From NCBI RefSeq assembly GCF_022133705.1, contig NZ_JAKNHJ010000014.1, positions 1 to 64,000 on the forward strand: DNA of 64,000 bases, read 5' to 3'. The DNA comes from Varibaculum cambriense (GTDB taxonomy: Bacteria > Actinomycetota > Actinomycetes > Actinomycetales > Actinomycetaceae). Positions 36,860-49,080 of the stretch are shown here, in pieces (positions within the stretch are counted from its first letter, which is position 1; each line of letters opens with the position of its first letter). Position numbers and translations under genes: made by a program. Under the pieces are notes generated by a model. That model was not told where the DNA came from and did not search any database. It saw nothing but the letters and a program-made list of their open reading frames with translations.

Positions 36860-38587
36860 CTAAGCTATCTGTTGCCCTAAAAGCGTTCTATAAATTGGCT
36901 GATCTTTAAGCTCCTGATGAGTCCCTTCCGCGACCACGCGCCCACCATCAAGAACTACGATATGGTCCGCGATACGAATAGAAGCCAACCGATGGGCAAT
37001 GACGATAGTAGTACGGTCAGCCCTCGCGTTACGAATATTTTTGGCAATGGAGGCTTCGAGGAACGGGTCAATATTAGCGAGCGGCTCATCGAGGATAAGC
37101 ATGTCGGGACGCCGAAGAAAAGCACGAGCAATCCCGATACGTTGACGTTCCCCACCCGAGAGCGTGGTTCCCCGATCCCCGACTTTCGCGTCTAATCCTC
37201 CTAAAGAAGTAATCAGCTCACTGATATCAGCTTCGGCAAGAGCTGCCCAAATATCATCATCACAGGCCTGCCGATTAGCTAAAACAAGATTGTCTCGCAC
37301 AGTTCCGGCAAAAATATGGCAGTCCTGGGGAACAAGAGCCAGTCTTTCGCGATATTGGTTTGGTTGATAGGAGCGAAGATTTCTCCCATCGAAACGCAGT
37401 TCGCCTTCCTGAGGATCAAGATAACGCATAGCCAGATTGGCTAGGGTAGTTTTCCCCGCCCCTGATTTTCCGACAATGGCGATTGAGCGTTTAGGAGTTG
37501 CGGTTAAGTTAACTTGGTTAATAACTGGCTTACCTGCCTGATAGGAAAAAACCGTATCATCACTAACTAAATGGTTTGTTTCTGCCTCGTATTCGGCATG
37601 ATTGGTTTCGGGGATGGAGGGGATGGGATCCTTAGCGTTAAGAATGGTATTAATCCGGTGTGCGCACGCCCCAATTTCTCCTACTCTCCCCAGCATGCCC
37701 ACTAACGTTGTCGCGGGGGTTGGCACTAGACCCGCTAGCACCACCGCAACTGGTAACAAAGCTGAATCTAAATGTCCGGTCAGCACCCACCCAGTTAGAA
37801 TGACTAGCAAAATCGTGGATCCGACTGTGGTTGCAATCGTAGAAAAAGCTGATTCCCAGGCTTTTCTTATCGTTTGCGAATTCTTAGTTACCTGCACTTT
37901 TCGTGTTAAATCCAAGATCTGCGCATTTTGTTTATCCACCATCCCCAATGACCGCAGTTCCCTTTGCCCTTGAATAGAATCCAGAACTGCAATACGCAAC
38001 TGGGCTAGTTGATAACGTAATTTTTTACCTTGCCGGCGTTGTATGGACATAAGGGCGAAAGGGAATGCAATCATAGCTGCAGTTGGTAGCAGCATTATCA
38101 GTCCAATCGGACCAATAAAACTCACCAGCACACCGGTGAATAAAGTTGGAGTGAGAATGGCACAGATGGCAGTAGAGGCCGTATGCGCATAAAACCATTC
38201 CAGCTGTTCCGCATCATTCATGGCAGCCGATGCCACATCACCGGTACGTTTCCCTTGCAACCCTAAGGGTGCGATTCGCTCGATAGCGTTATAAATGTGC
38301 ACCCGCAAGGTATGTAGAATCCGGTAAGCAACTTCATGTGACCACCAAACCTCAAAGAGGGTACTCACGGCATGCACGACCACCAGGGTAAACATCATAA
38401 CGAACAGCAGGTTCAGATTATTCGTACGGTTTAATATGAATTGCGTAGATATCCATACTGAACTGACCGCAACCCCAACAACACTAATTTGGGCAAGCGC
38501 AGTCACAATAGTGGCGGCTACGAAAAGGGGAACACATTCGCGTAGCCGCTTCATCAGTGCAAGGAAATTACTGAAAACTAAGGTCAT
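36860..38587 (-). CDS. ABC exporter half-transporter (CydC-like), RiPP/metallophore locus
   Basis: 575 residues: an exporter-type transmembrane domain with six helices (residues ~1-320) fused to an ATPase domain. Walker A is GKSGAGKTTLANLA, the signature is LSGGERQRIGIARAF, Walker B is DMLILDEPLA and the switch is IVIAHRLAS; all are intact. It is the last gene of the leftward operon that starts with the 34-codon peptide gene, 6 bases behind its partner at 38594. It resembles CydC and siderophore-type (IrtB-like) exporters. I infer it forms a heterodimer that exports the modified peptide; import by an IrtAB-like mechanism is the alternative. Confidence 0.85.
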   Translation of the reverse strand: MTLVFSNFLALMKRLRECVPLFVAATIVTALAQISVVGVAVSSVWISTQFILNRTNNLNLLFVMMFTLVVVHAVSTLFEVWWSHEVAYRILHTLRVHIYNAIERIAPLGLQGKRTGDVASAAMNDAEQLEWFYAHTASTAICAILTPTLFTGVLVSFIGPIGLIMLLPTAAMIAFPFALMSIQRRQGKKLRYQLAQLRIAVLDSIQGQRELRSLGMVDKQNAQILDLTRKVQVTKNSQTIRKAWESAFSTIATTVGSTILLVILTGWVLTGHLDSALLPVAVVLAGLVPTPATTLVGMLGRVGEIGACAHRINTILNAKDPIPSIPETNHAEYEAETNHLVSDDTVFSYQAGKPVINQVNLTATPKRSIAIVGKSGAGKTTLANLAMRYLDPQEGELRFDGRNLRSYQPNQYRERLALVPQDCHIFAGTVRDNLVLANRQACDDDIWAALAEADISELITSLGGLDAKVGDRGTTLSGGERQRIGIARAFLRRPDMLILDEPLANIDPFLEASIAKNIRNARADRTTIVIAHRLASIRIADHIVVLDGGRVVAEGTHQELKDQPIYRTLLGQQIA

Positions 38588-38593
38588 AGTCGA

Positions 38594-40327
38594 CTAGGCT
38601 CCCATCTGTGCACTAATCAATCTTGACCAGGCATTATCTTCCTGGCTTAACGTACAGGGATTCCCGCTACAAAGCACTTTCCCATGTCCCATTACCACTA
38701 CATGATCTGTTTGCTCAGCAGCGTCAATACGGTGAGTAACCAGCAATAAAGTGAGATTCGGGTACGTCTTGCGAATATTCGCCAGAACCGTTGTTTCTGT
38801 TTGGGTGTCCAGACCAGAAGTAGATTCATCGAGTACGAGGAGCGGGCATTTGCGAACCAGAGCCCGAGCGATTGCCAGTCGTTGTTTTTGTCCTCCCGAA
38901 AGATTCTGAGCATGTTCTTCAATTTCTAAATCAAGAATATTGTCACCAGAATCAGGATTGTTATCGGGATGCAGGTTTGTGGCACAGGCTAGCTTTAGAG
39001 CCGTCATCATCTCCACTTCATCCGCTTTGGGATTAGCTTCGGCCAAAATTGACCTTATAGTTCCCGGAAAAATAATCGGGTCTTGCGGAACCAGCGTGAC
39101 GGTACGGGCAATATCCAAACTGTCCGCTGAAACCCCTCCCACTGTGATACTTCCACTATCAGGGTGATCGAAACCCATTAATAACCCGAGCGCGGTGGAT
39201 TTCCCGGAACCTGACAGCCCCACCAGAGCGGTTGTTTTACCTGCAGGTGCTCCGAAAGTGACTTGCTCAAGAGCCTGCTCGGCAGCTCCCGGATAAGTGT
39301 AGGAGATATCCACGAAAGATACTTCGTTACTGTGAGGCATGTTTTGCGGAGATTTGCGGGTAGCGGCAGAAGTTTGCTCCTGTTCAAATAACTCGCTCAT
39401 AGCCGGCAGCGCGGAAATACCAAAGAATGCTTCATGCCAACATGCCGATAGGGCGGTAAATGGGCGGAAAAGTTCGATAGCTAGCAGCGTAACCACAAAT
39501 AGCGAGCTGATTGGCATCGCCTCGGAAGAAATCAAAGAAATTGCGATCACTAGCCCGAGGGCGGGACCGAGCACTTTCATCATTCCTGATAGGCCAGTTT
39601 CTCCCAATGAAAGCCGTAGCTGCCCCATAGTAGTTTTGAGCAGCTGGCTGGACTGTTTTTCTAATTGGGTGCCATGATCTTTAGCCGCCCCAAAAGATTT
39701 CAAAGTGGACATTCCCATCATAGAATCCACGAAATCGGCATTGAGATTTTCGTACGCTACCCAATGCGATTGTCCGCGATCAGCAAGAGCTCTATCCCAT
39801 AATCGGGGAATAGCAATAATCGCGACTCCACAGACTAAAAGAACTCCCGCAATCAGGGGAGAAATGCTGGCAATAGCAATTGTTAAACCAATCGCGGTTA
39901 GAGCAGTGACCGCCAGTTGGGTGAAATACTTGACGAAATAGGGTTCGATCGCCTCAACCCCATCAGTGAGAACCGACTGTATTTGTCCAGAACGCCCCAG
40001 TCCTCCCCGCATAGGTCCGCGCGCATCTAGTTGCTCTAGAAGCGCCTGCCGTAAGCGGCTTTTCACCACTAGTCCCGCTCGATTTTGTAGAAGCTGTCCA
40101 CTGACCTCAAGTAACGGACGGATTAAGAGCAAACCGGCAATAGCTATGATTAGTCCCACCACCGTGGAGACCCGGCGAGAGCTCAATAGCTCATTGAAAA
40201 GCATGGCGTTGCACACCGCGGTTGCAATATATAAGCAAGACACCAGGACACCCAACATCATGGCGGGGGCCAGCAGCCACACGGAGACTCCGGCGGCGCG
40301 CATAACTAAACGCTGCTTTGCGAACAC
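38594..40327 (-). CDS. ABC exporter half-transporter (CydD-like), RiPP/metallophore locus
   Basis: 577 residues with an N-terminal six-helix exporter domain and a C-terminal ATPase. A CydD-like sequence (DGVEAIEPYFVKYFTQL) occurs near residue 125. Walker A is GLSGSGKSTALGLLMG, the signature is NLSGGQKQRLAIARAL, Walker B is LLVLDESTSGLD, and the switch is LVTHRID. It follows the YcaO gene by 34 bases and precedes its likely heterodimer partner. No peptidase C39 domain is present, so leader removal during export is not expected from this protein. Confidence 0.85.
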   Translation of the reverse strand: MFAKQRLVMRAAGVSVWLLAPAMMLGVLVSCLYIATAVCNAMLFNELLSSRRVSTVVGLIIAIAGLLLIRPLLEVSGQLLQNRAGLVVKSRLRQALLEQLDARGPMRGGLGRSGQIQSVLTDGVEAIEPYFVKYFTQLAVTALTAIGLTIAIASISPLIAGVLLVCGVAIIAIPRLWDRALADRGQSHWVAYENLNADFVDSMMGMSTLKSFGAAKDHGTQLEKQSSQLLKTTMGQLRLSLGETGLSGMMKVLGPALGLVIAISLISSEAMPISSLFVVTLLAIELFRPFTALSACWHEAFFGISALPAMSELFEQEQTSAATRKSPQNMPHSNEVSFVDISYTYPGAAEQALEQVTFGAPAGKTTALVGLSGSGKSTALGLLMGFDHPDSGSITVGGVSADSLDIARTVTLVPQDPIIFPGTIRSILAEANPKADEVEMMTALKLACATNLHPDNNPDSGDNILDLEIEEHAQNLSGGQKQRLAIARALVRKCPLLVLDESTSGLDTQTETTVLANIRKTYPNLTLLLVTHRIDAAEQTDHVVVMGHGKVLCSGNPCTLSQEDNAWSRLISAQMGA

Positions 40328-40361
40328 AATCGCCTTTCCTTTCTCAACAACGGTATCGGTT

Positions 40362-42572
40362 CTACGCGTGCGGCATTGGGAAGGGGTTCATGCTACCTTC
40401 AGGTCTTGGCGAATCCACCCATCCTAACCGTACTGCTTCCTCTGCCACCATATTGCGCCCCAGGTAGGGAAATGCGGCAGGAGTATTGCCTATCGTGCCG
40501 GGAATTAATGTGCGGATCACATGCAGTCCGCAAGAAGCGACATCGCGAGAGGTGATATCAACGGTAATTACCCGCATACCCCGGGCGTGGATACGCTCTA
40601 TATAACTAGCTAGTTGGCTATCTTTCAGCTGTGACACAGATGAAATACTGCGGGTTGCTGGTATATCCAACAGTGGTTTCACTCTGTCTACCGCGCGAGG
40701 ATCTAGAAAGACCTCTTGCTGAATTAGTAGGTCATCTACATCTTTGAGATCCTCACGGAAGTCATCCAGATAGCGGCGGTCACGGCGCCATTTCTTATAT
40801 GAACGTCCAGGAAGTAGACCTTTACGGATTGCTGTCCAATGTGCCCCTTCGGGGTTTGCGAGGTCGTGAGCTCCCTCTTGTAAGGTGAGCGCTTCACTCC
40901 AAGCTTTTAAAGCGCCTTGTTCAACGCTCGAACGACAAGAAAAACCAACGTGTACCAGTTTAGAGACATCATTGTGAACTACCCCGGCTAGAACCGGAAT
41001 ATTGAAAGTGTTGTCTAGATTGATCAAAGCGGGGCGGAGTGGCTCTTTCGTCCCGCTAAAAAGATCTAAATATTTCTGCGGTAATTCCAGGTGCGGAAGC
41101 GGCTGGGCATTCAACCACCACACCATGGTGGCATGCCGCTCAATAATTTCACTGATACCCGACAATATCGCCTGGTCACTGCTGGTTCCTGCAGCTACTC
41201 CAGCAAACGCAGGAAAGTTAACTTTCGGTTCTTGCCGATACTGGTTGGTATACCAGTTGACATACACCAAGGAGGCAGGAACGAAAACTGGCTCTTCATC
41301 CTCATAATAGGTACCTTCCACCCACCCTACGGGCAGTTCAGGCGTCAAAGGTACAAAAGGAAATCCGGGGTGCTGGTATTGGTTTGCAGAGAATAGCACC
41401 AGTTCTTCCGGATGAAGAAGCGGGTATCCTTTTCTCGTTAATTCCCGATAAGAACCATGTAATACCGGTTTGAGATCGATTAGGTTAGAGCAATAACGCT
41501 CGACCGATTCACCAATAGCCGCTAGTTCAGTGTCGTGGATCTGCGCTTCTTTTTCTTCTTCTCCAACCTCATTGGAGATTAACGTTGACCCTTGGCAAAA
41601 TACAGTGTTGATATAAGTTGATGTTCTGCGTAAATCACACGTTCGCGCCTGGGTAGTATGCAACGTAGGCGGCATATAGGCACTGTGATGTACCCGAGTG
41701 AGCTCTTTTACGATTCCATAGCATTTATCAACCACAAAGGTGGGAGGGTGAATCGGGGATTTAGGCTGAGGGCCCATCATAAAATTCGTGGGAAGCACCG
41801 CGTGAACTTCGAGCTCCCCGTCCATGGAAATTGCCCAAATAGTGTCAAGGGGGGTTGATTTCTGGTTATCGATTTCATTGCGAGTAATAGCTTTAATTAA
41901 TTCCGCTGCTTTGTGCCCCATATTTGTGGCTGCACCTAAGCGCGGTAAGAAACTTCCCCATACGGGGCTACCCATTTTTGCTTGAAATACTTCACTATTG
42001 ACTGCATTTCCACCGAGACGAGCAAGACTGTCGCTATAAGTTGCACCTTGCCCTTTAAGTACTGCTGGGCCAACCAATAGTTGGTCGGGGGTGTGATCCA
42101 CCGTGATCACTGAAATATTTAGTCCGAGATTGTCTTCAATAGTTTCCGCAAATACGGGAGCAGGATCATCTCCGCGACACACCACCAGGGCGCCGCGATT
42201 GAAGACTTGGTATGCACATTCGCGAACTGACTGGGAAGACAAGCGCGCCGTGACATCAATCTTTTGGAGCTCTGAAGTTATTAAACGCGCAATTGTGGGA
42301 TCGCCGCAGACAATTACCTCTGCATCGGCCATAGATTGAGGATCAGGGGTCGGGGAGACTAGGTCCTGCGTGTTGATAAAACAGCTGTGTTTTTCTAATG
42401 CTTTTTTCAACGGAGTGCCCAAAGGGTGAGTGGACTGGACATCCTGCGCCGCATCTAAGACGCGCACGATACTATTGACATCCGTTGAGAGCACCAGATC
42501 ACGACCATCTGCACATGTAAGAACGCATCTATTCGTATCCAAAGGCCTTACTTGCGCACAAATCTTCCACAT
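40362..42572 (-). CDS. Fused E1-like/YcaO cyclodehydratase (TOMM synthetase)
   Basis: 736 residues with the architecture of fused cyclodehydratases (TruD/LynD type). The N-terminal ~270 residues look like the E1/ThiF-like partner: a Rossmann-like VIVCGDPTIARLITSEL and QLLVGPAVLKGQ, without the usual zinc cysteines. From ~300 comes the YcaO domain, with ATP-binding motifs AIGESVERYC, SGISEIIERHA and LKAWSEALTLQEG. The C-terminus ends NPFPMPHA, the PxPxP tail typical of azoline-forming YcaO enzymes. It should convert Cys, Ser or Thr of the peptide encoded at 42651-42755 to thiazoline or oxazoline. No FMN dehydrogenase gene is nearby. The ATG at 42572 is preceded by GAGGATCAGGGG. Confidence 0.9.
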   Translation of the reverse strand: MWKICAQVRPLDTNRCVLTCADGRDLVLSTDVNSIVRVLDAAQDVQSTHPLGTPLKKALEKHSCFINTQDLVSPTPDPQSMADAEVIVCGDPTIARLITSELQKIDVTARLSSQSVRECAYQVFNRGALVVCRGDDPAPVFAETIEDNLGLNISVITVDHTPDQLLVGPAVLKGQGATYSDSLARLGGNAVNSEVFQAKMGSPVWGSFLPRLGAATNMGHKAAELIKAITRNEIDNQKSTPLDTIWAISMDGELEVHAVLPTNFMMGPQPKSPIHPPTFVVDKCYGIVKELTRVHHSAYMPPTLHTTQARTCDLRRTSTYINTVFCQGSTLISNEVGEEEKEAQIHDTELAAIGESVERYCSNLIDLKPVLHGSYRELTRKGYPLLHPEELVLFSANQYQHPGFPFVPLTPELPVGWVEGTYYEDEEPVFVPASLVYVNWYTNQYRQEPKVNFPAFAGVAAGTSSDQAILSGISEIIERHATMVWWLNAQPLPHLELPQKYLDLFSGTKEPLRPALINLDNTFNIPVLAGVVHNDVSKLVHVGFSCRSSVEQGALKAWSEALTLQEGAHDLANPEGAHWTAIRKGLLPGRSYKKWRRDRRYLDDFREDLKDVDDLLIQQEVFLDPRAVDRVKPLLDIPATRSISSVSQLKDSQLASYIERIHARGMRVITVDITSRDVASCGLHVIRTLIPGTIGNTPAAFPYLGRNMVAEEAVRLGWVDSPRPEGSMNPFPMPHA

Positions 42573-42601
42573 AACCCCTGATCCTCTTACCTATATGAAA
42601 T

Positions 42602-42640
42602 ATTGGGTAAAGTGCGTCTTAGCACTATCTTTTACCCAAT
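42602..42640 (-). terminator. Hairpin between peptide and YcaO genes (attenuator or mRNA stabiliser)
   Basis: ATTGGGTAAA (42602-42611) pairs with TTTACCCAAT (42631-42640), and GTGC pairs with GCAC inside. The hairpin lies between the peptide stop codon and the YcaO ribosome binding site. There is no strong T run. The position suits partial termination or 3'-end protection, so that precursor transcript exceeds enzyme transcript, as is common in RiPP operons. Confidence 0.6.
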
Positions 42641-42650
42641 GCCTATCTAC

Positions 42651-42755
42651 TTACCTCCATGCAAAGCTCTGCTGCGTGGCACCGTGATGGCAGTGAGGAA
42701 CAGTGATTTTGTCGGTGTTCACTTCCTCAATCTCTACGATTTCGAGTGTGTTCAT
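42651..42755 (-). CDS. RiPP precursor peptide, 34 residues (putative metallophore precursor)
   Basis: A 35-codon frame directly upstream of the YcaO gene. The ribosome binding site is excellent: AAAGGAGGGGAA abuts ATG 42755. The leader is acidic (MNTLEIVEIEEVNTDKITVP) and the C-terminal part is HCHHGATQQSFAWR. The core holds one Cys, one Thr and one Ser that could be heterocyclised, three His, and Trp. An acidic leader and a heterocyclisable core are classic for TOMM precursors. A thiazoline from Cys22 flanked by imidazoles would make a good metal-binding site. Its position 54 bases from a DtxR-type box supports an iron role. The leader-core boundary is a guess. Confidence 0.85.
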   Translation of the reverse strand: MNTLEIVEIEEVNTDKITVPHCHHGATQQSFAWR

Positions 42756-42808
42756 TTCCCCTCCTTTCAAGCGATAGCAACTTCAGAGGCTAGTCTTTAA
42801 CTTGTTAC

Positions 42809-42827
42809 TTAGGTTATGCTAACCTAA
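42809..42827. promoter_or_regulatory. DtxR/IdeR-type iron box in the divergent promoter region
   Basis: TTAGGTTATGCTAACCTAA is a perfect 8-bp palindrome around a TGC centre. It differs at one of 19 positions from the consensus I know for the DtxR operator (TTAGGTTAGGCTAACCTAA). It sits between the peptide gene (54 bases to its ATG) and the hydrolase gene (71 bases to its GTG), so one iron-dependent repressor could silence both operons when iron is plentiful. Confidence 0.85.
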
Positions 42828-42897
42828 ACACAGTTTACATGGTTTCGTCTTTTACACAAGAGGGAAATAAAACTACGGAACAAATGAAGGAGGTTAG

Positions 42898-44079
42898 GTG
42901 AACCAGATATCGCAACTATCCCCGCCTAAGTGCGAAAACATTATCAAAGTGCGTGGTGAGATCCGGTTACCCGAAGGCAGTGTCTTCTATCCACAGTGGA
43001 AAACCTCTGGATCTAACCCGGTATATGGCGGTTACCAAGATGCTTGCGAAACTCTGGTTTATGACACCAAAACTTTTGATGTCATCACCCACAAATCTGG
43101 AAAATCATTCCCTCTAGGACAACACATTAAACCGATAAAAGTACTCGACCAGGAGCTCTATTTACAAGGCTCCTCCTTTATTAATGCTCCCCGCCTTTAC
43201 CGCCTTGATCGGAAAACTGGAGAACTAACTTTCGTCAAGAATGACACCTCCGAAAACGCCAACACATTTACCTGCAGACAAATTTGGGCTCATAGTGAGG
43301 ACGGAACCCGAATCCCTATAGACTGCTTCGGAACGTTAGCGGAAAAACAGCCGACAATCGTATTCATTTACGGGGGATTCGGGAGGAACAATCACAGTTT
43401 CTATAGTCCAGACATTTATTCAAAATGGTTAACCCTTGGTTACAGCGTTGCCGTTATTCACTCCCGAGGAGGCGCTGAATTCGGGAAAGCTTGGCATCAA
43501 GCCGGGGTTAAAGCAGGAAGACGCAAAGTCAGGGAGGATATAGCCTCCTCTATTCGTGAATTGCATCGTCAAGATATTTGTACCCCCGAGACTACATTTG
43601 TACACGGTATGTCTCATGGAGCATTGCTGGCAGCGATTACCACTATCTCCCACCCAGAACTCGTATCCCAAGTAATATGCCGCGTCCCGATCAGCAGCAC
43701 TAAAGGCCTGCCGGAAACAACCTTAGGTCGTCAATGGTTAGACGAGTACGGGGATCCTCAAACCTCTGATTGGGATAACTTTATGAAAGAAGAAGATCCC
43801 CTAGCCTGTGAAGCCACACCCCGAAGTTTATGCACCACATCTTGGCTCATTATTGGCTACTGTCACGATGCAGTCACCACTATTTCTCATGCAGATTCCC
43901 TAGTCGAACGGGTGAAAAATTTGGGAGGGGAAGTAACGTACTGGCGTTATTCCAGCAAAGGCGGACATGAAGGGGCATTTGATCCCAGCGAGAGGATAGC
44001 CCACGAACGCAGACTGTGGAGCTATCTCAGCCAAAAAGCATCTGAAACAAAACCGGAAGCAACAGGTTCACCATGTTAA
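42898..44079 (+). CDS. Short prolyl-oligopeptidase-like serine hydrolase (S9 family)
   Basis: 393 residues. The C-terminal α/β-hydrolase domain (from ~140) has the nucleophile elbow HGMSHGALLA, an upstream FIYGGFGRNN oxyanion segment typical of S9 peptidases, RGGAEFGKAWHQAG, and likely catalytic Asp and His in GYCHDAVT and SKGGHEGAF. The N-terminal β-propeller is only a remnant of about 130 residues, against ~400 in prolyl oligopeptidases. There is no signal peptide, so it acts in the cytoplasm. GTG 42898 follows GAAGGAGG. It may trim the RiPP leader or hydrolyse the imported metal complex to release iron. It overlaps the permease gene by 7 bp. Confidence 0.8.
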   Translation: MNQISQLSPPKCENIIKVRGEIRLPEGSVFYPQWKTSGSNPVYGGYQDACETLVYDTKTFDVITHKSGKSFPLGQHIKPIKVLDQELYLQGSSFINAPRLYRLDRKTGELTFVKNDTSENANTFTCRQIWAHSEDGTRIPIDCFGTLAEKQPTIVFIYGGFGRNNHSFYSPDIYSKWLTLGYSVAVIHSRGGAEFGKAWHQAGVKAGRRKVREDIASSIRELHRQDICTPETTFVHGMSHGALLAAITTISHPELVSQVICRVPISSTKGLPETTLGRQWLDEYGDPQTSDWDNFMKEEDPLACEATPRSLCTTSWLIIGYCHDAVTTISHADSLVERVKNLGGEVTYWRYSSKGGHEGAFDPSERIAHERRLWSYLSQKASETKPEATGSPC

Positions 44080-45095
44080 CGAATAGAAAGCAACGCCTAA
44101 TTCTGGCAATCGTTTTAGCGATAACGCTAGCTTGCTCGTTGATAGTGGCTGTCATTGTGGGAGCTACTGATATTTCACTATCGACCGCACTTGAGGGCAT
44201 CAATGCCACGCTGAGAAGAACTGCTGCACTTGATGTTGATACTCAGATTATTGGGGAGGTCAGATTCCCCCGCGCTGTTCTGGGAGCAATCGTAGGTGCC
44301 GGCTTGGGTATATGCGGCCTGATAACTCAGTCGTTACTGCGCAACCCGTTGGGCGATCCCTATATTCTAGGTATTTCCTCCGGGGCTTCCACCGGCGCAG
44401 CAGCAGTCATAGTTTTCGGAACAACCAGCAATATCTTATCTGCATTGGGAATCACTTTCGGTGCCTTCCTGGGAGCAATAACCTCCATCCTACTCGTTAC
44501 CCTGCTAGCTTCTGCCGGAGGAAAAATCACTCCGACACGCATCATTTTTGCAGGTATGGCGGTAACTTACTTTTTCTCGGCAGTAACCAGCTTGATAACT
44601 CTGATGGCTAAAAACGCGGCTGGAACCAAATCGGTAATGTTTTGGATGCTCGGATCAATATCTAACGCCACCTGGCATGACGTCATTATCGCAGGCAGCG
44701 TGGTAACTATTGCATTAATTTGCTTCACCATCTGGGGAAGACGGGTTGACATCCTTAACCTGGGAGACGATGCCGCAATCTCACTGGGTACTAGTCCCCG
44801 CCTCTATCGAAACCTCCTATTTCTCATAGTGGCGCTCACTATAGCGGTGCTTGTCTCCCTTACCGGTGCCATCGGATTCGTGGGCCTAGTCGTTCCTCAT
44901 GCTGCGAAACAACTGGTAGGTTCGACCACTCGAGCTGCGTTACCTATCTCTGCCCTGGGAGGCGGACTGCTTGTCGTCATTGCCGACACCTGTACCCGCG
45001 TGGCTATCAGACCAGCGGAACTACCTATCGGAATACTAACAGCCCTGGTAGGAGCCCCTATGCTAATGGCTCTCATCAAGAAATATTCCAAATAG
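44073..45095 (+). CDS. FecCD-type iron/siderophore ABC permease
   Basis: 340-residue polytopic permease of the BtuC/FecCD family with about ten hydrophobic segments. Family marks are RFPRAVLGAIVGAGLGICGLI near the N-terminus, RNPLGDPYILGISSGAS, the LNLGDDAAISLGTSP cytoplasmic loop, and GAIGFVGLVVPHAAK. Only one permease gene is present, implying a homodimer. The start overlaps the hydrolase stop by 7 bp; the binding-protein gene follows 14 bases downstream. It should import a ferric complex together with the products of 45110 and 46104. Confidence 0.92.
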   Translation: MLTNRKQRLILAIVLAITLACSLIVAVIVGATDISLSTALEGINATLRRTAALDVDTQIIGEVRFPRAVLGAIVGAGLGICGLITQSLLRNPLGDPYILGISSGASTGAAAVIVFGTTSNILSALGITFGAFLGAITSILLVTLLASAGGKITPTRIIFAGMAVTYFFSAVTSLITLMAKNAAGTKSVMFWMLGSISNATWHDVIIAGSVVTIALICFTIWGRRVDILNLGDDAAISLGTSPRLYRNLLFLIVALTIAVLVSLTGAIGFVGLVVPHAAKQLVGSTTRAALPISALGGGLLVVIADTCTRVAIRPAELPIGILTALVGAPMLMALIKKYSK

Positions 45096-45109
45096 AAAGG
45101 AAGAAAAGA

Positions 45110-46099
45110 ATGATCAAGAAACGAATTGTGGCTGGCGCGTTGGGCGCATGCCTTGCGGTCGCCGCCCTCACTGGCTGCTCCGGGACAAAGGATTCTTCTA
45201 ACGCTGCTGCTGACGAACCCCTTACCGTAAAGAACTGTGGGGTGGAAACGAAGTTTACTACCCATCCTAAGAAAGTTGTTTCGATGGGAGTTACCGGTTT
45301 GGCGTACCTATTTGCTGCCGGAGCAGAAAAATCCATTGTTGGTCGCGCCAATGAATGGGGTGAAGAACCGCCCTCCTGGATAGGTAAAAAAGCAGACGGA
45401 ATCAAAGTGCTGTCAACGGAATCCATTTCTATGGAAGCACTCATGAAGCTGAAACCTGATCTTGCTTATGGTGGCGGATTCAGTTCCGAAACTACCGCTC
45501 CGAAAGCTGTAGCAGAAAAGGGAATCCCTGCCGTTGTAGATGCTACCGAGTGCAACTACTTCTATCCGGATCAAAAATCCGATGAATCGTTCGATACTAC
45601 TTTGGCGGAGATTACTCAGCTAGGCAAGATCATGGGCACCTCCGAAAAAGCGGATGCCACCGTCAAGGAACTTAAAGAGAAGCTAGAGCAGATTAGTAAT
45701 GAGAAAATCGGTAAAGACCGCAAAGTTTCCTACGCCTACTACTACGGAGAAGATGCCGACCTATTTAGTTACGGAAACAAAGGGGTCATGGGGGAAATAA
45801 ATAAGACCCTCAACCTTGTTAGTGCTATCGACCCGAACTATCATCCGCACCAAGGTCCCATTGCGCCAGAAGCATTTGTTAAATCAGACCCCGATGTAAT
45901 CATCTTGCTCACCGGAATGGGGGGTGCCACCAAAGAAAGTTCAATGCAACGACTTGAAAAGATTCCTGGCTTCAAGGACATGAAAGCGGTTAAAAATGGC
46001 AACATTATCTACGCGGAATCCGCAGTAGCCTATGCTTCCCCCACCGCGATTTATGGAACATTTGAACTGGCTGATCAGCTCAAGAAACTAGGAAAGTAA
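45110..46099 (+). CDS. Iron-complex substrate-binding lipoprotein
   Basis: 329 residues with a lipoprotein signal ending LAVAALTGCSG, so the mature protein is anchored on the outer face of the membrane. The rest is a class III periplasmic-binding fold: VVSMGVTGLAYLFAAGAEKSIVGRANEW, a LMKLKPDLAYGGGF segment, a long connecting helix (LKEKLEQISNEK) and DPDVIILLTGMGG. It is the specificity component of the adjacent FecCD/FecE transporter. The presumed ligand is the metal complex of the locally encoded peptide; other xenosiderophores are possible. Confidence 0.9.
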   Translation: MIKKRIVAGALGACLAVAALTGCSGTKDSSNAAADEPLTVKNCGVETKFTTHPKKVVSMGVTGLAYLFAAGAEKSIVGRANEWGEEPPSWIGKKADGIKVLSTESISMEALMKLKPDLAYGGGFSSETTAPKAVAEKGIPAVVDATECNYFYPDQKSDESFDTTLAEITQLGKIMGTSEKADATVKELKEKLEQISNEKIGKDRKVSYAYYYGEDADLFSYGNKGVMGEINKTLNLVSAIDPNYHPHQGPIAPEAFVKSDPDVIILLTGMGGATKESSMQRLEKIPGFKDMKAVKNGNIIYAESAVAYASPTAIYGTFELADQLKKLGK

Positions 46100-46103
46100 A
46101 CGG

Positions 46104-46883
46104 ATGAATGATTCTCCCCTCACGATAGACAAAGCTAGCGTCCATTTCGGTGACACCAAAGTTCTTGACAGGGTCTCCTTCGAGGTACCTCAAGGTAAAA
46201 TTTTAGGTATCGCCGGCCCTAATGGTTCCGGGAAAACTACCCTCATGAGGGCTATGTTCGCTGCACAAAAACTATCGGAGGGGAGAATCCTCCTCAGTGG
46301 GCAGCCTTTAGACCAAATGCGCCCCGGTCAAGTTGCCCGACGTATCGCAGTGGTTTCCCAATTCGAGCACGACATGGAAAGAACCCGCGTACTCGATATT
46401 GTTCTTCTGGGACGATCCCCACATCGTAAGGATATTCAAGGATATAGCGCAGCTGATCGTAAAATCTGTCAAGAGGCTCTTGCCGCTGTTGGTATGAGCT
46501 ATGCGCAAGAGCGCTATGTGGATACGCTTTCCGGTGGGGAGCGTCAACGGGTTCTTATTGCCCGCGCCCTCGCCCAACAATGTAAATGTATCCTGCTAGA
46601 TGAACCCACAAATCATCTAGATATCAAATACCAACATCAAATTCTTAGTATCATCAAGAATGTTAGCGACACCGCTGTCATAATCTTGCATGATCTTAAC
46701 CTGGTAACCCGCTACTGCGACCAGGCAATTATTCTTAAAAATGGTCGGGTACACACTCAAGGTGTCCCGGACGATATTCTCACTCCTGAACTCATCCACG
46801 ATGTTTATGGCGTAAGCGCCAAAGAAGTCCAAGACGGAAACGTCAAACAATTTATTTTCAAACCATTGCCATCCACTACCTGA
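46104..46883 (+). CDS. Iron-complex ABC transporter ATPase (FecE type)
   Basis: 259 residues. Walker A is GPNGSGKTTLMRAMFA, the Q-loop is VVSQFEH, the signature is TLSGGERQRVLIARAL, Walker B is CILLDEPTNHLD and the switch is IILHDLNLV. The LDEPTNHLDI sequence is typical of the siderophore/cobalamin importer group. It starts 4 bases after the lipoprotein stop and closes the rightward iron operon. Confidence 0.93.
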   Translation: MNDSPLTIDKASVHFGDTKVLDRVSFEVPQGKILGIAGPNGSGKTTLMRAMFAAQKLSEGRILLSGQPLDQMRPGQVARRIAVVSQFEHDMERTRVLDIVLLGRSPHRKDIQGYSAADRKICQEALAAVGMSYAQERYVDTLSGGERQRVLIARALAQQCKCILLDEPTNHLDIKYQHQILSIIKNVSDTAVIILHDLNLVTRYCDQAIILKNGRVHTQGVPDDILTPELIHDVYGVSAKEVQDGNVKQFIFKPLPSTT

Positions 46884-47778: not shown

Positions 47779-49080
47779 TTAACCTTTTCTGTACTTTGTT
47801 TTTCTGCCTCTTCCGTCCTGATAGATCAAGCCGTCTGTAATCATGCGTTTTAGAATACGGCTGGCCGTTGTTTGGCTGACATCCAACAGTTGATCCACAT
47901 CGCTACGTACTACATAGCCGTTTTTGTCAATCAGATCCAGAATTTTTTCTTCATTGGATTTGCGTTCGTTAGACATGGTAGCCATTGTCTTAACGGCATT
48001 TCTATTGGGAAGTGTAATTTTGAAAGCATTGTTTGTTACTTCAATTTTAGGCTCTAACCCCGTGCCTGCGTATGCTTTCATGATTTTGGGCATACCGGTT
48101 CCGTAAGCTTCAATCAGCTTTAAGCGATAGAAGATAGCTGCTAATTTCGGATTTCTGCAAACGGAAAGTCCGAGCATAATGTCATCCAAAGTGATTCCGG
48201 CAGGCAAACCGCCCACGGATACAAATTCGATTCGATCATCATAGATACTGACAAGGGTGCTGGCACTAAAAGAGTAATCTCTATGCACCAGAGAATTCAT
48301 CAATGTTTCTCTCAGAGCGTCCTCTGGATAATCTCTGGTATCAGTTCGGTATAGTCCCTCAAATGTGGCCTTGGTTTGATTGTGCAGATCGAGATAGGCA
48401 TACAAATCCTCCATCTGCTGAAACAGCGAACCAGTAAACTCACGTCTATCTTGGAATGTGCTCTGATCAACACCGGCAAAGGTTGCAGCCTTGATGGTAT
48501 TCGGACATTGTTCGGACAGAAGCAACGCTACATTGGAGTAAACGCCGTCCGAGGAAACCATTCCCAAAGTCTGCATCTTAGCAGCATCATAGGGAACCTT
48601 CCTCTTGGCAAACTGTGCTTCAGCTGCCTGGAATGACAAATTCTGTTCCAAAGAGCGCATGGTTTCAAAACTGTCACCATCGGTTTCTTTAATCATTTTT
48701 CGGATGGCGGTATCAGAGGCAGGATCTGTAGATGTACCATTGCGGACATACACGCCACTGGGCTTTAATCCCTTGCTGCCCAGATAATAAGGACGGTCTG
48801 TACCCTCCTGAACGGTCACGGCAATAATTCGTTTATCATCTATCACCTGTGTCTCATAGTGGACAAACATCGTAATATCAGGTTTGATGGAATCCCGAAC
48901 CATGTTATTAATTTGCAAGGCAACACGGTCGGTACTATCTACACCAATCACCGTACCATTGTCCTCAACACCAATGTAAAGAGTGCCGCCTTTGGTGTTA
49001 GCAAAGGCAACCACCTCTTTACAAAGGTCCGCAACAACCGAAGACTTGAGTTCGATAGTTTCGCTCTCACTAAATGCCAT
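47779..49080 (-). CDS. AlbA_2 (Schlafen-type) ATP-binding regulator-like protein
   Basis: 433 residues. The N-terminal AlbA_2 domain is seen in ETIELKSSVVADLCKEVVAF, GGTLYIGVEDNGTVIGV and the VQEGTDRPYYL segment. A RecG-C/HATPase-c_4-like region follows with LRETLMNSLVHRDYS and KLIEAYGTGMPKIMKAY. A C-terminal winged helix is visible as LDVSQTTASRILKRMITDGL. Such proteins are common in mobile and defence-related regions and are usually called putative transcriptional regulators. The gene is AT-richer than the core genes and resembles Firmicutes versions in style. GGAGG precedes ATG 49080. Function unknown. Confidence 0.8.
   Translation of the reverse strand: MAFSESETIELKSSVVADLCKEVVAFANTKGGTLYIGVEDNGTVIGVDSTDRVALQINNMVRDSIKPDITMFVHYETQVIDDKRIIAVTVQEGTDRPYYLGSKGLKPSGVYVRNGTSTDPASDTAIRKMIKETDGDSFETMRSLEQNLSFQAAEAQFAKRKVPYDAAKMQTLGMVSSDGVYSNVALLLSEQCPNTIKAATFAGVDQSTFQDRREFTGSLFQQMEDLYAYLDLHNQTKATFEGLYRTDTRDYPEDALRETLMNSLVHRDYSFSASTLVSIYDDRIEFVSVGGLPAGITLDDIMLGLSVCRNPKLAAIFYRLKLIEAYGTGMPKIMKAYAGTGLEPKIEVTNNAFKITLPNRNAVKTMATMSNERKSNEEKILDLIDKNGYVVRSDVDQLLDVSQTTASRILKRMITDGLIYQDGRGRKTKYRKG

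Follow-up and report, generated by a model that had tools for sequence, protein, structure and literature searches.

The window analysed here, a 64,000-nucleotide stretch of the Varibaculum cambriense contig NZ_JAKNHJ010000014.1, holds two divergent operons separated by a palindrome of the DtxR type. The leftward operon comprises a short precursor peptide gene, a gene for a fused YcaO enzyme and two genes for ATP-binding cassette (ABC) half-transporters, in this order, while the rightward operon runs from a hydrolase gene through FecCD and a binding protein to FecE. All the genes reported in a preliminary description of this DNA, as well as the palindrome, were found in their places. Apparently, the gene set is switched on under iron scarcity and makes a small modified histidine-rich peptide. 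The cluster is read here as an iron-starvation-induced metallophore system based on a ribosomally synthesized and post-translationally modified peptide (RiPP), from a branch with a fused YcaO that is akin to the streptamidine family, a reading that we regard as evenly poised between right and wrong. The elements of the cluster are the following:

36860–38587, minus strand: ABC half-transporter 2, CydC-like, exporter fold
38594–40327, minus strand: ABC half-transporter 1, CydD-like, exporter fold
40362–42572, minus strand: fused YcaO enzyme gene, 736 residues (Pfam YcaO, E=3.3e-51)
42651–42755, minus strand: precursor peptide gene, 34 aa, heading the YcaO operon
42809–42827, unstranded: DtxR-type operator TTAGGTTATGCTAACCTAA, between the two divergent operons
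42898–44079, plus strand: S9 (prolyl-oligopeptidase-like) hydrolase (Pfam S9, E=5.6e-20)
44073–45095, plus strand: FecCD-type permease (Pfam FecCD, E=5e-84)
45110–46099, plus strand: metallophore-type binding lipoprotein (Pfam Peripla_BP_2, E=2.5e-26)
46104–46883, plus strand: FecE-type ATPase (Pfam ABC_tran, E=3.4e-33)

Conservation and components of the cluster

Conservation was followed in a family sample of 213 genomes, one per species, and in order-level and phylum-level samples of 396 genomes each. A YcaO relative (E≤1e-20) is present in 24 of the 213 family genomes, and it is full-length, with at least 53% identity, in 15. In all 15, the YcaO gene stands beside the ABC pair, FecCD, the binding protein and FecE (in L033 the cluster is rearranged and ABC2 is cut by the end of the stretch). 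The neighbourhood that the preliminary description had proposed to search for, YcaO with FecCD, an S9 hydrolase and a short peptide, recurs in full in 14 of them, the S9 gene being the element not found in the L037 stretch. Since the set is conserved around YcaO in 15 relatives, the locus is more than a chance assembly.

The remaining nine of the 24 genomes hold ten weaker YcaO loci (L040–L049). Five of these (L040, L041, L043, L044, and L045) have FecCD, the binding protein, FecE and the ABC pair; L042 shows a weak FecE match only, and L046–L049 hold no Fec gene. Beyond the family, the YcaO alignment matched 13 of the order-level and five of the phylum-level genomes at E≤1e-60. Among the 13 new stretches, seven (L068–L071, L074, L075, and L079) combine YcaO with the ABC pair, FecCD, FecE and the binding protein, and four (L076, L077, L078, and L080) combine the ABC pair with a partial Fec set, some of them truncated where the stretch or contig ends; L072 holds the ABC pair only, and L073 neither the ABC pair nor the Fec set.

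The window precursor, MNTLEIVEIEEVNTDKITVPHCHHGATQQSFAWR, has the leader MNTLEIVEIEEVNTDKITV and is preceded by the ribosome site GGAGG. A precursor heads the YcaO operon in 15/15 relatives with a full-length YcaO, with a pattern near M..L.IVE...TDQITVPHCHHxxTxxxFAWx in which the PHCHH core, including Pro20 and His23-His24, is invariant, so the dedicated precursor of the preliminary description is borne out. In L040, L041, L043, L044, and L045, LAPNSNHH or LAPNSHHH replaces TVPHCHH; a small-ORF homology screen of distant loci recovered no precursor, and these were recognised by reading the intergenic stretches directly. The window precursor matched no NCBIfam model and falls outside the strict definition of streptamidine precursors (NF040714 / motif A with NALVENPF), while those of L083 and L080 exceed the NF040714 cut-off. 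Elsewhere, L068, L069, and L070 hold a second YcaO gene (24–26% identity), and their precursors, LAPNANNHGHVSTAFAWS, have Ala at the expected Ser/Cys position; the precursors of L112, L113, L114, and L119 carry an HLSA[ST]HSNALV[EA]NPF core in two tandem copies.

The YcaO protein, 98% identical to its counterpart in V. cambriense DSM 15806, scores 241.5 bits on TIGR03604 (SagD), above the cut-off of 219.25, and ends in FPMPHA. Residues about 275–736 form the YcaO domain, related to the solved LynD, TruD, and MusD, and residues about 1–270 are AmiB-like. No Pfam or NCBIfam model matched these N-terminal 270 aa, and a PDB search with this part alone returned a single meaningless match (E=0.91). 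As to its relation to STREPTAMIDINE, the N-terminal part aligned with AmiB-position proteins in hhalign at a probability of 93.7 (E=1.8e-7, 242 columns); the match of the YcaO part to AmiD (E=3.4e-71) is weak evidence alone, two YcaO domains being expected to match. The AmiB-like part is proposed, from this profile similarity, as a putative leader-binding or partner part of the fused enzyme. Thus, of the "fused cyclodehydratase-YcaO" described previously, the YcaO part is confirmed by Pfam, and the cyclodehydratase part rests on profile similarity to AmiB.

The nearest NCBIfam models of the ABC half-transporters are CydD and CydC, both under cut-off. YbtPQ and IrtAB are ABC pairs of exporter fold that work on the import side in siderophore systems, and the solved relatives of ABC protein 2 include YbtQ (E=1.2e-55); however, CydC (E=9.5e-56) and ABCB1-like exporters match the pair as well as or better than YbtPQ/IrtAB-type transporters. 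The S9 hydrolase has prolyl endopeptidases as its closest solved relatives (2bkl, E=8e-35), a triad placed by alignment at Ser239/Asp324/His357, and oligopeptidase B, far under cut-off, as its nearest NCBIfam model; it is proposed as a candidate leader protease.

Operators and uptake-only relatives

The window palindrome has two mismatches (plus strand) or one (minus strand) to TTAGGTTAGCCTAACCTAA, for which 0.01 matches at ≤3 mismatches would be expected by chance in the window, and none to TTAGGTTANNCTAACCTAA, of which it is the sole perfect match in the genome. Promoters of 48 loci were compared over the 250 bp preceding the precursor, with 200 resamples each, using a DtxR-type pattern of 17 fixed bases and a Zur-type 7-1-7 pattern of 12 fixed bases; the p values are uncorrected for multiple tests. 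A DtxR-type box lies 62–78 bp before the start codon in 15/15 window-branch loci (0–3 mismatches, 0/200 resamples as good), a conservation that upholds the iron-type operator noted previously. This predicted site would serve both the production and the uptake genes. Two of the three LAPNSNHH loci of the same family also carry a DtxR-type box (3 and 4 mismatches), and the third has 6 mismatches (p=0.05).

In the 22 NALVENPF-type loci (L074–L080, L083, and L112–L125, with L077 and L078 as nearly identical copies from a single genome), no DtxR-type box was found in these upstream regions, and all 22 hold a Zur-type box with 0–3 mismatches, 75–103 bp before the start codon. No resample out of 200 was as good in 16 of these loci, and p ranged from 0.005 to 0.025 in L074, L077, L115, L120, L121, and L122. 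Six of 20 fetched loci (L126–L131) were excluded from the comparison, as no precursor was recognised in them; each has one or more Zur-type sites with no more than 2 mismatches. In L040, L041, and L068–L073, no box in the 250 bp before the precursor was convincing (the best, in L069, is Zur-type with 4 mismatches, p=0.02); three of these loci (L040, L041, and L068) have a Zur-type box with at most one mismatch at a greater distance, near the transporter operons. Control of the window cluster by Zur was considered and rejected, its best Zur-type match having 4 mismatches (p=0.6). In the window branch, L030, L038, and L039 have Zur-type sites at one mismatch inside the YcaO gene, and because such sites occur there, a lone Zur-type site without its position means little.

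The boxes of the streptamidine-type loci are likely to be true Zur sites. The published Zur motif of Streptomyces coelicolor is tGaNNatSatNNtCa (PMC5472717, available in part). The exact Zur-type pattern, searched in four genomes, matched eight places spread over three genomes, and the fourth had no match. Two of these places are amiA promoters; among the other five stretches, L158 carries zinc-importer-type genes for ABC ATPase and ABC-3 permease proteins, another holds genes for major facilitator superfamily and "heavy-metal chelation" DUF364 proteins, and three showed no metal gene. Neither "Zur" nor "DtxR" appears in the available part of the text that describes streptamidine (PMC8442711). 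From the DtxR-type and Zur-type boxes, a response to metal starvation, iron or zinc, is predicted for both branches.

The binding protein also occurs where the YcaO protein does not: at E≤1e-60 it was matched in 20 of the 213 family genomes, 15 being the producers and five lacking a YcaO match. In four of these (L152, L153, L155, and L156), FecCD–binding protein–FecE faces ABC1–ABC2 across a DtxR-type box (1, 1, 3, and 3 mismatches, respectively), and no precursor, YcaO or S9 gene was found in their 20-kb stretches; the fifth, L154, lies at a contig end, with just FecE and the binding protein in view. A tree built from the concatenated transport proteins places the four uptake-only loci among producers, with three state changes, two of them forced by well-supported branches. 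The tree fits a repeated loss of the production genes without proving the direction of change, and the uptake-only loci look like receptor-only users of a shared siderophore or metallophore. The distribution of genes across these loci shows the precursor, YcaO and hydrolase behaving as a production module, and the Fec genes with the ABC pair as a predicted uptake module that also occurs alone. From this pattern, S9 is counted among the production genes and the ABC pair is placed with uptake or recycling, a role at least as likely for the pair, on this gene distribution, as export. Hence, the exporter fold of the "two ABC half-exporters" of the preliminary description stands, and their export role is doubtful, the pair being kept beside Fec genes without YcaO. 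Two narrower assignments were weakened: a dedicated exporter, by the retention of the ABC pair in four relatives without YcaO, and an uptake-side S9 hydrolase, by the absence of S9 from the four uptake-only stretches. On the other hand, streptamidine-type clusters have an S9 gene beside the Fec genes, adjoining a separate AmiC, which counts towards S9 on the uptake side.

Relation to streptamidine and other peptide families

The layout had been thought undescribed, a claim contradicted by the streptamidine family, published in 2021 with the same kinds of genes (PMC8442711). In that source, as far as available, more than 230 clusters are described with FecBCDE, YcaO, a hydrolase and two ABC genes, the product being HLSATH with a six-membered N-terminal amidine, and metal import is proposed by its authors. 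The fused branch lies outside that survey, because standalone YcaO proteins only were taken. What is new is thus the fused branch and its regulation, the layout being already described.

Both groups share a precursor, YcaO, an E1/RiPP recognition element (RRE)-like partner, a hydrolase, two ABC transporters and FecBCDE-like genes, together with a Ser or Cys as the residue proposed to be cyclised and, in many loci, S9 beside the Fec genes; the precursor of a relative located on a plasmid of Rhodococcus rhodochrous is annotated as "streptamidine family RiPP". However, in the window branch the AmiB- and AmiD-like parts are fused, which sets it apart from a strict definition by standalone YcaO, the precursor has no ALV motif and has PHCHH instead of HLSATH as its core, and the operator is DtxR-type rather than Zur-type. 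Under a wider definition, the branch agrees in its YcaO with an AmiB-like partner, its FecBCDE-like genes and its two ABC genes, and departs in AmiC and AmiE: Rhodococcus proteins taken as AmiC and AmiE gave no tblastn match at E≤1e-4 in 20 window-branch loci, and the window S9 is a different hydrolase from AmiC. A tree built from 44 YcaO domains resolves two separate clades, one of the 9 window-branch rows (support 100/100) and one of the 12 streptamidine rows (100/99), and other YcaO proteins, some without Fec genes, fall between them. On this tree, the window branch is a relative of the streptamidine clade and not a member of it.

Bufferins and methanobactins are made by multinuclear non-heme iron-dependent oxidative enzymes (MNIO) and linked to copper. 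Captophorins are MNIO-made and copper-linked as well (PMC13097082, available in part); all three are metal-handling ribosomal peptides like the one proposed here, but with no YcaO-Fec cluster. Mobilisin, a predicted group of thiazole/oxazole-modified microcins (TOMM), shares with the window an actinobacterial fused cyclodehydratase beside a short peptide poor in Cys, Ser and Thr, and may overlap with the window branch. For its 52 proteins, compared by description only, B, C, and D proteins are described and no precursor family is defined, and the words "iron" and "metal" are absent from the available part of the text (PMC4603692). A literature search on the precursor motifs and on YcaO with FecCD returned nothing, which is weak evidence and does not prove the branch unpublished, since it missed PMC8442711 likewise.

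Proposed mechanism and alternative explanations

The reading as an iron-starvation-induced RiPP metallophore is supported by the DtxR-type box, the PHCHH precursor and the ABC pair with the Fec genes, each found in 15/15 relatives, and by the uptake-only relatives that carry the box. In addition, the window's genome encodes two DtxR-family proteins and gave no match (0 each, E≤0.001, controls detected) to the non-ribosomal peptide synthetase (NRPS) condensation domain or to IucA/IucC. In general, DtxR acts as a repressor together with Fe(II), YcaO proteins carry out an ATP-dependent cyclisation of backbone amides, and FecBCD systems take up chelates. Under low iron, DtxR would release the operator shared by both operons. 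The AmiB-like part would then bind the leader, and the YcaO part would use ATP to cyclise the backbone at Cys22 of P-H-C-H-H, giving a thiazoline or, as in streptamidine, an amidine. The S9 enzyme is expected to remove the leader next to the invariant Pro20, where a cut after Pro would leave a product beginning with HCHH and a cut before it would place Cys third, like Ser in streptamidine. The released His/azoline (or amidine) peptide would bind an extracellular metal, iron being the likeliest, perhaps through its imidazoles and the ring nitrogen, although this is a guess. The lipoprotein and FecCD/FecE would import the peptide–metal complex, and the ABC pair may help import or recycle the apo-peptide, rather than acting only as a dedicated exporter.

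Several observations weigh against this reading. The S9 gene was not found in the L037 stretch, and its active-site Ser is replaced by Pro in L034 and L035, whose clusters are otherwise intact; the absence of S9 and precursor from uptake-only genomes holds for the fetched stretches only; and related YcaO clusters stand without Fec genes nearby in L042, L046, L072, L073, L081, and L082. DtxR-type boxes also control manganese uptake in some bacteria, and the window's own genome has three more DtxR-type places at 2–3 mismatches, against control matches of 2 forward and 1 reverse. One of them (L162, contig C43, near 82640, 2 mismatches) lies just before a ZnuA-family/ABC/ABC-3 metal importer operon, a position that may speak for manganese or zinc no less than for iron. 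Together with the presence of two DtxR-family proteins, this importer site favours a metallophore that is built alike and directed at a different metal (manganese, zinc, copper, nickel, or cobalt), whose operator would answer an MntR-like protein or general metal stress; the Zur-type boxes of relatives and the general chemistry of imidazole and azoline nitrogens, which suit Zn, Cu, Ni, and Fe(II), point the same way. Nevertheless, the operator agrees with the classical consensus of iron-responsive DtxR/IdeR boxes, and the window promoter holds no Zur-type box, so another metal is considered unlikely.

The remaining objections come from streptamidine itself, for which, in the available part of PMC8442711, no metal binding and no metal-starvation phenotype of the mutant were observed, and deletion of the Fec genes (amiF1–F4) abolished production, an effect unexplained by uptake alone; deletion of the ABC pair merely lowered it. 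These results would suit a streptamidine-like peptide that carries no metal, for example a signal whose Fec-type uptake is needed for its production. Such a peptide seems improbable given the DtxR-type boxes in 15/15 loci, the Zur-type boxes in 22/22, the uptake-only genomes under DtxR-type boxes and a window core that, with its three His and one Cys, differs from HLSATH. Many azole peptides are toxins, the YcaO protein exceeds a SagD-family cut-off and the uptake genes occur without YcaO, all of which would agree with a linear azole-type bacteriocin beside uptake genes that serve an unrelated siderophore. However, the linkage between YcaO and the uptake genes holds across genera, no YcaO genome of the window branch (0/15) lacks the binding protein, and streptamidine showed no antibacterial or antifungal activity (PMC8442711, in its available part); a bacteriocin, set aside as the principal explanation on the Fec linkage and the metal-type operators, is thus very hard to credit.

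Because of the Zur-type boxes in 22/22 streptamidine-type loci, a link to metal starvation seems to extend to the wider family. A broader and more tentative proposal, which we think somewhat likelier to fail than to hold, is that the YcaO-Fec family comprises widespread ribosomal metallophores whose metal follows the regulator, with iron for the DtxR/HCHH branch of Actinomycetaceae, zinc for the Zur/streptamidine type of other Actinobacteria, and receptor-only relatives that pirate the peptide. If true, the window branch would provide the first ribosomal siderophore for iron to our knowledge, ribosomal peptides would join the products of NRPS and of NRPS-independent siderophore (NIS) synthesis as a route to iron carriers, and the receptor-only genomes would add peptide piracy. 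Streptamidine, a very widespread RiPP family for which its authors found no function (PMC8442711, in its available part), would gain one. The operators point to the conditions concerned, zinc starvation for the streptamidine branch and iron starvation for the window branch, and the HCHH core would be a better chelator candidate than HLSATH. The retention of the ABC pair in receptor-only genomes also calls its usual "exporter" label into question.

Beside the cluster, at 47779–49080 on the minus strand, lies an apparently unrelated gene for a protein with Schlafen/AlbA_2 and RecG C-terminal-like ATPase domains.

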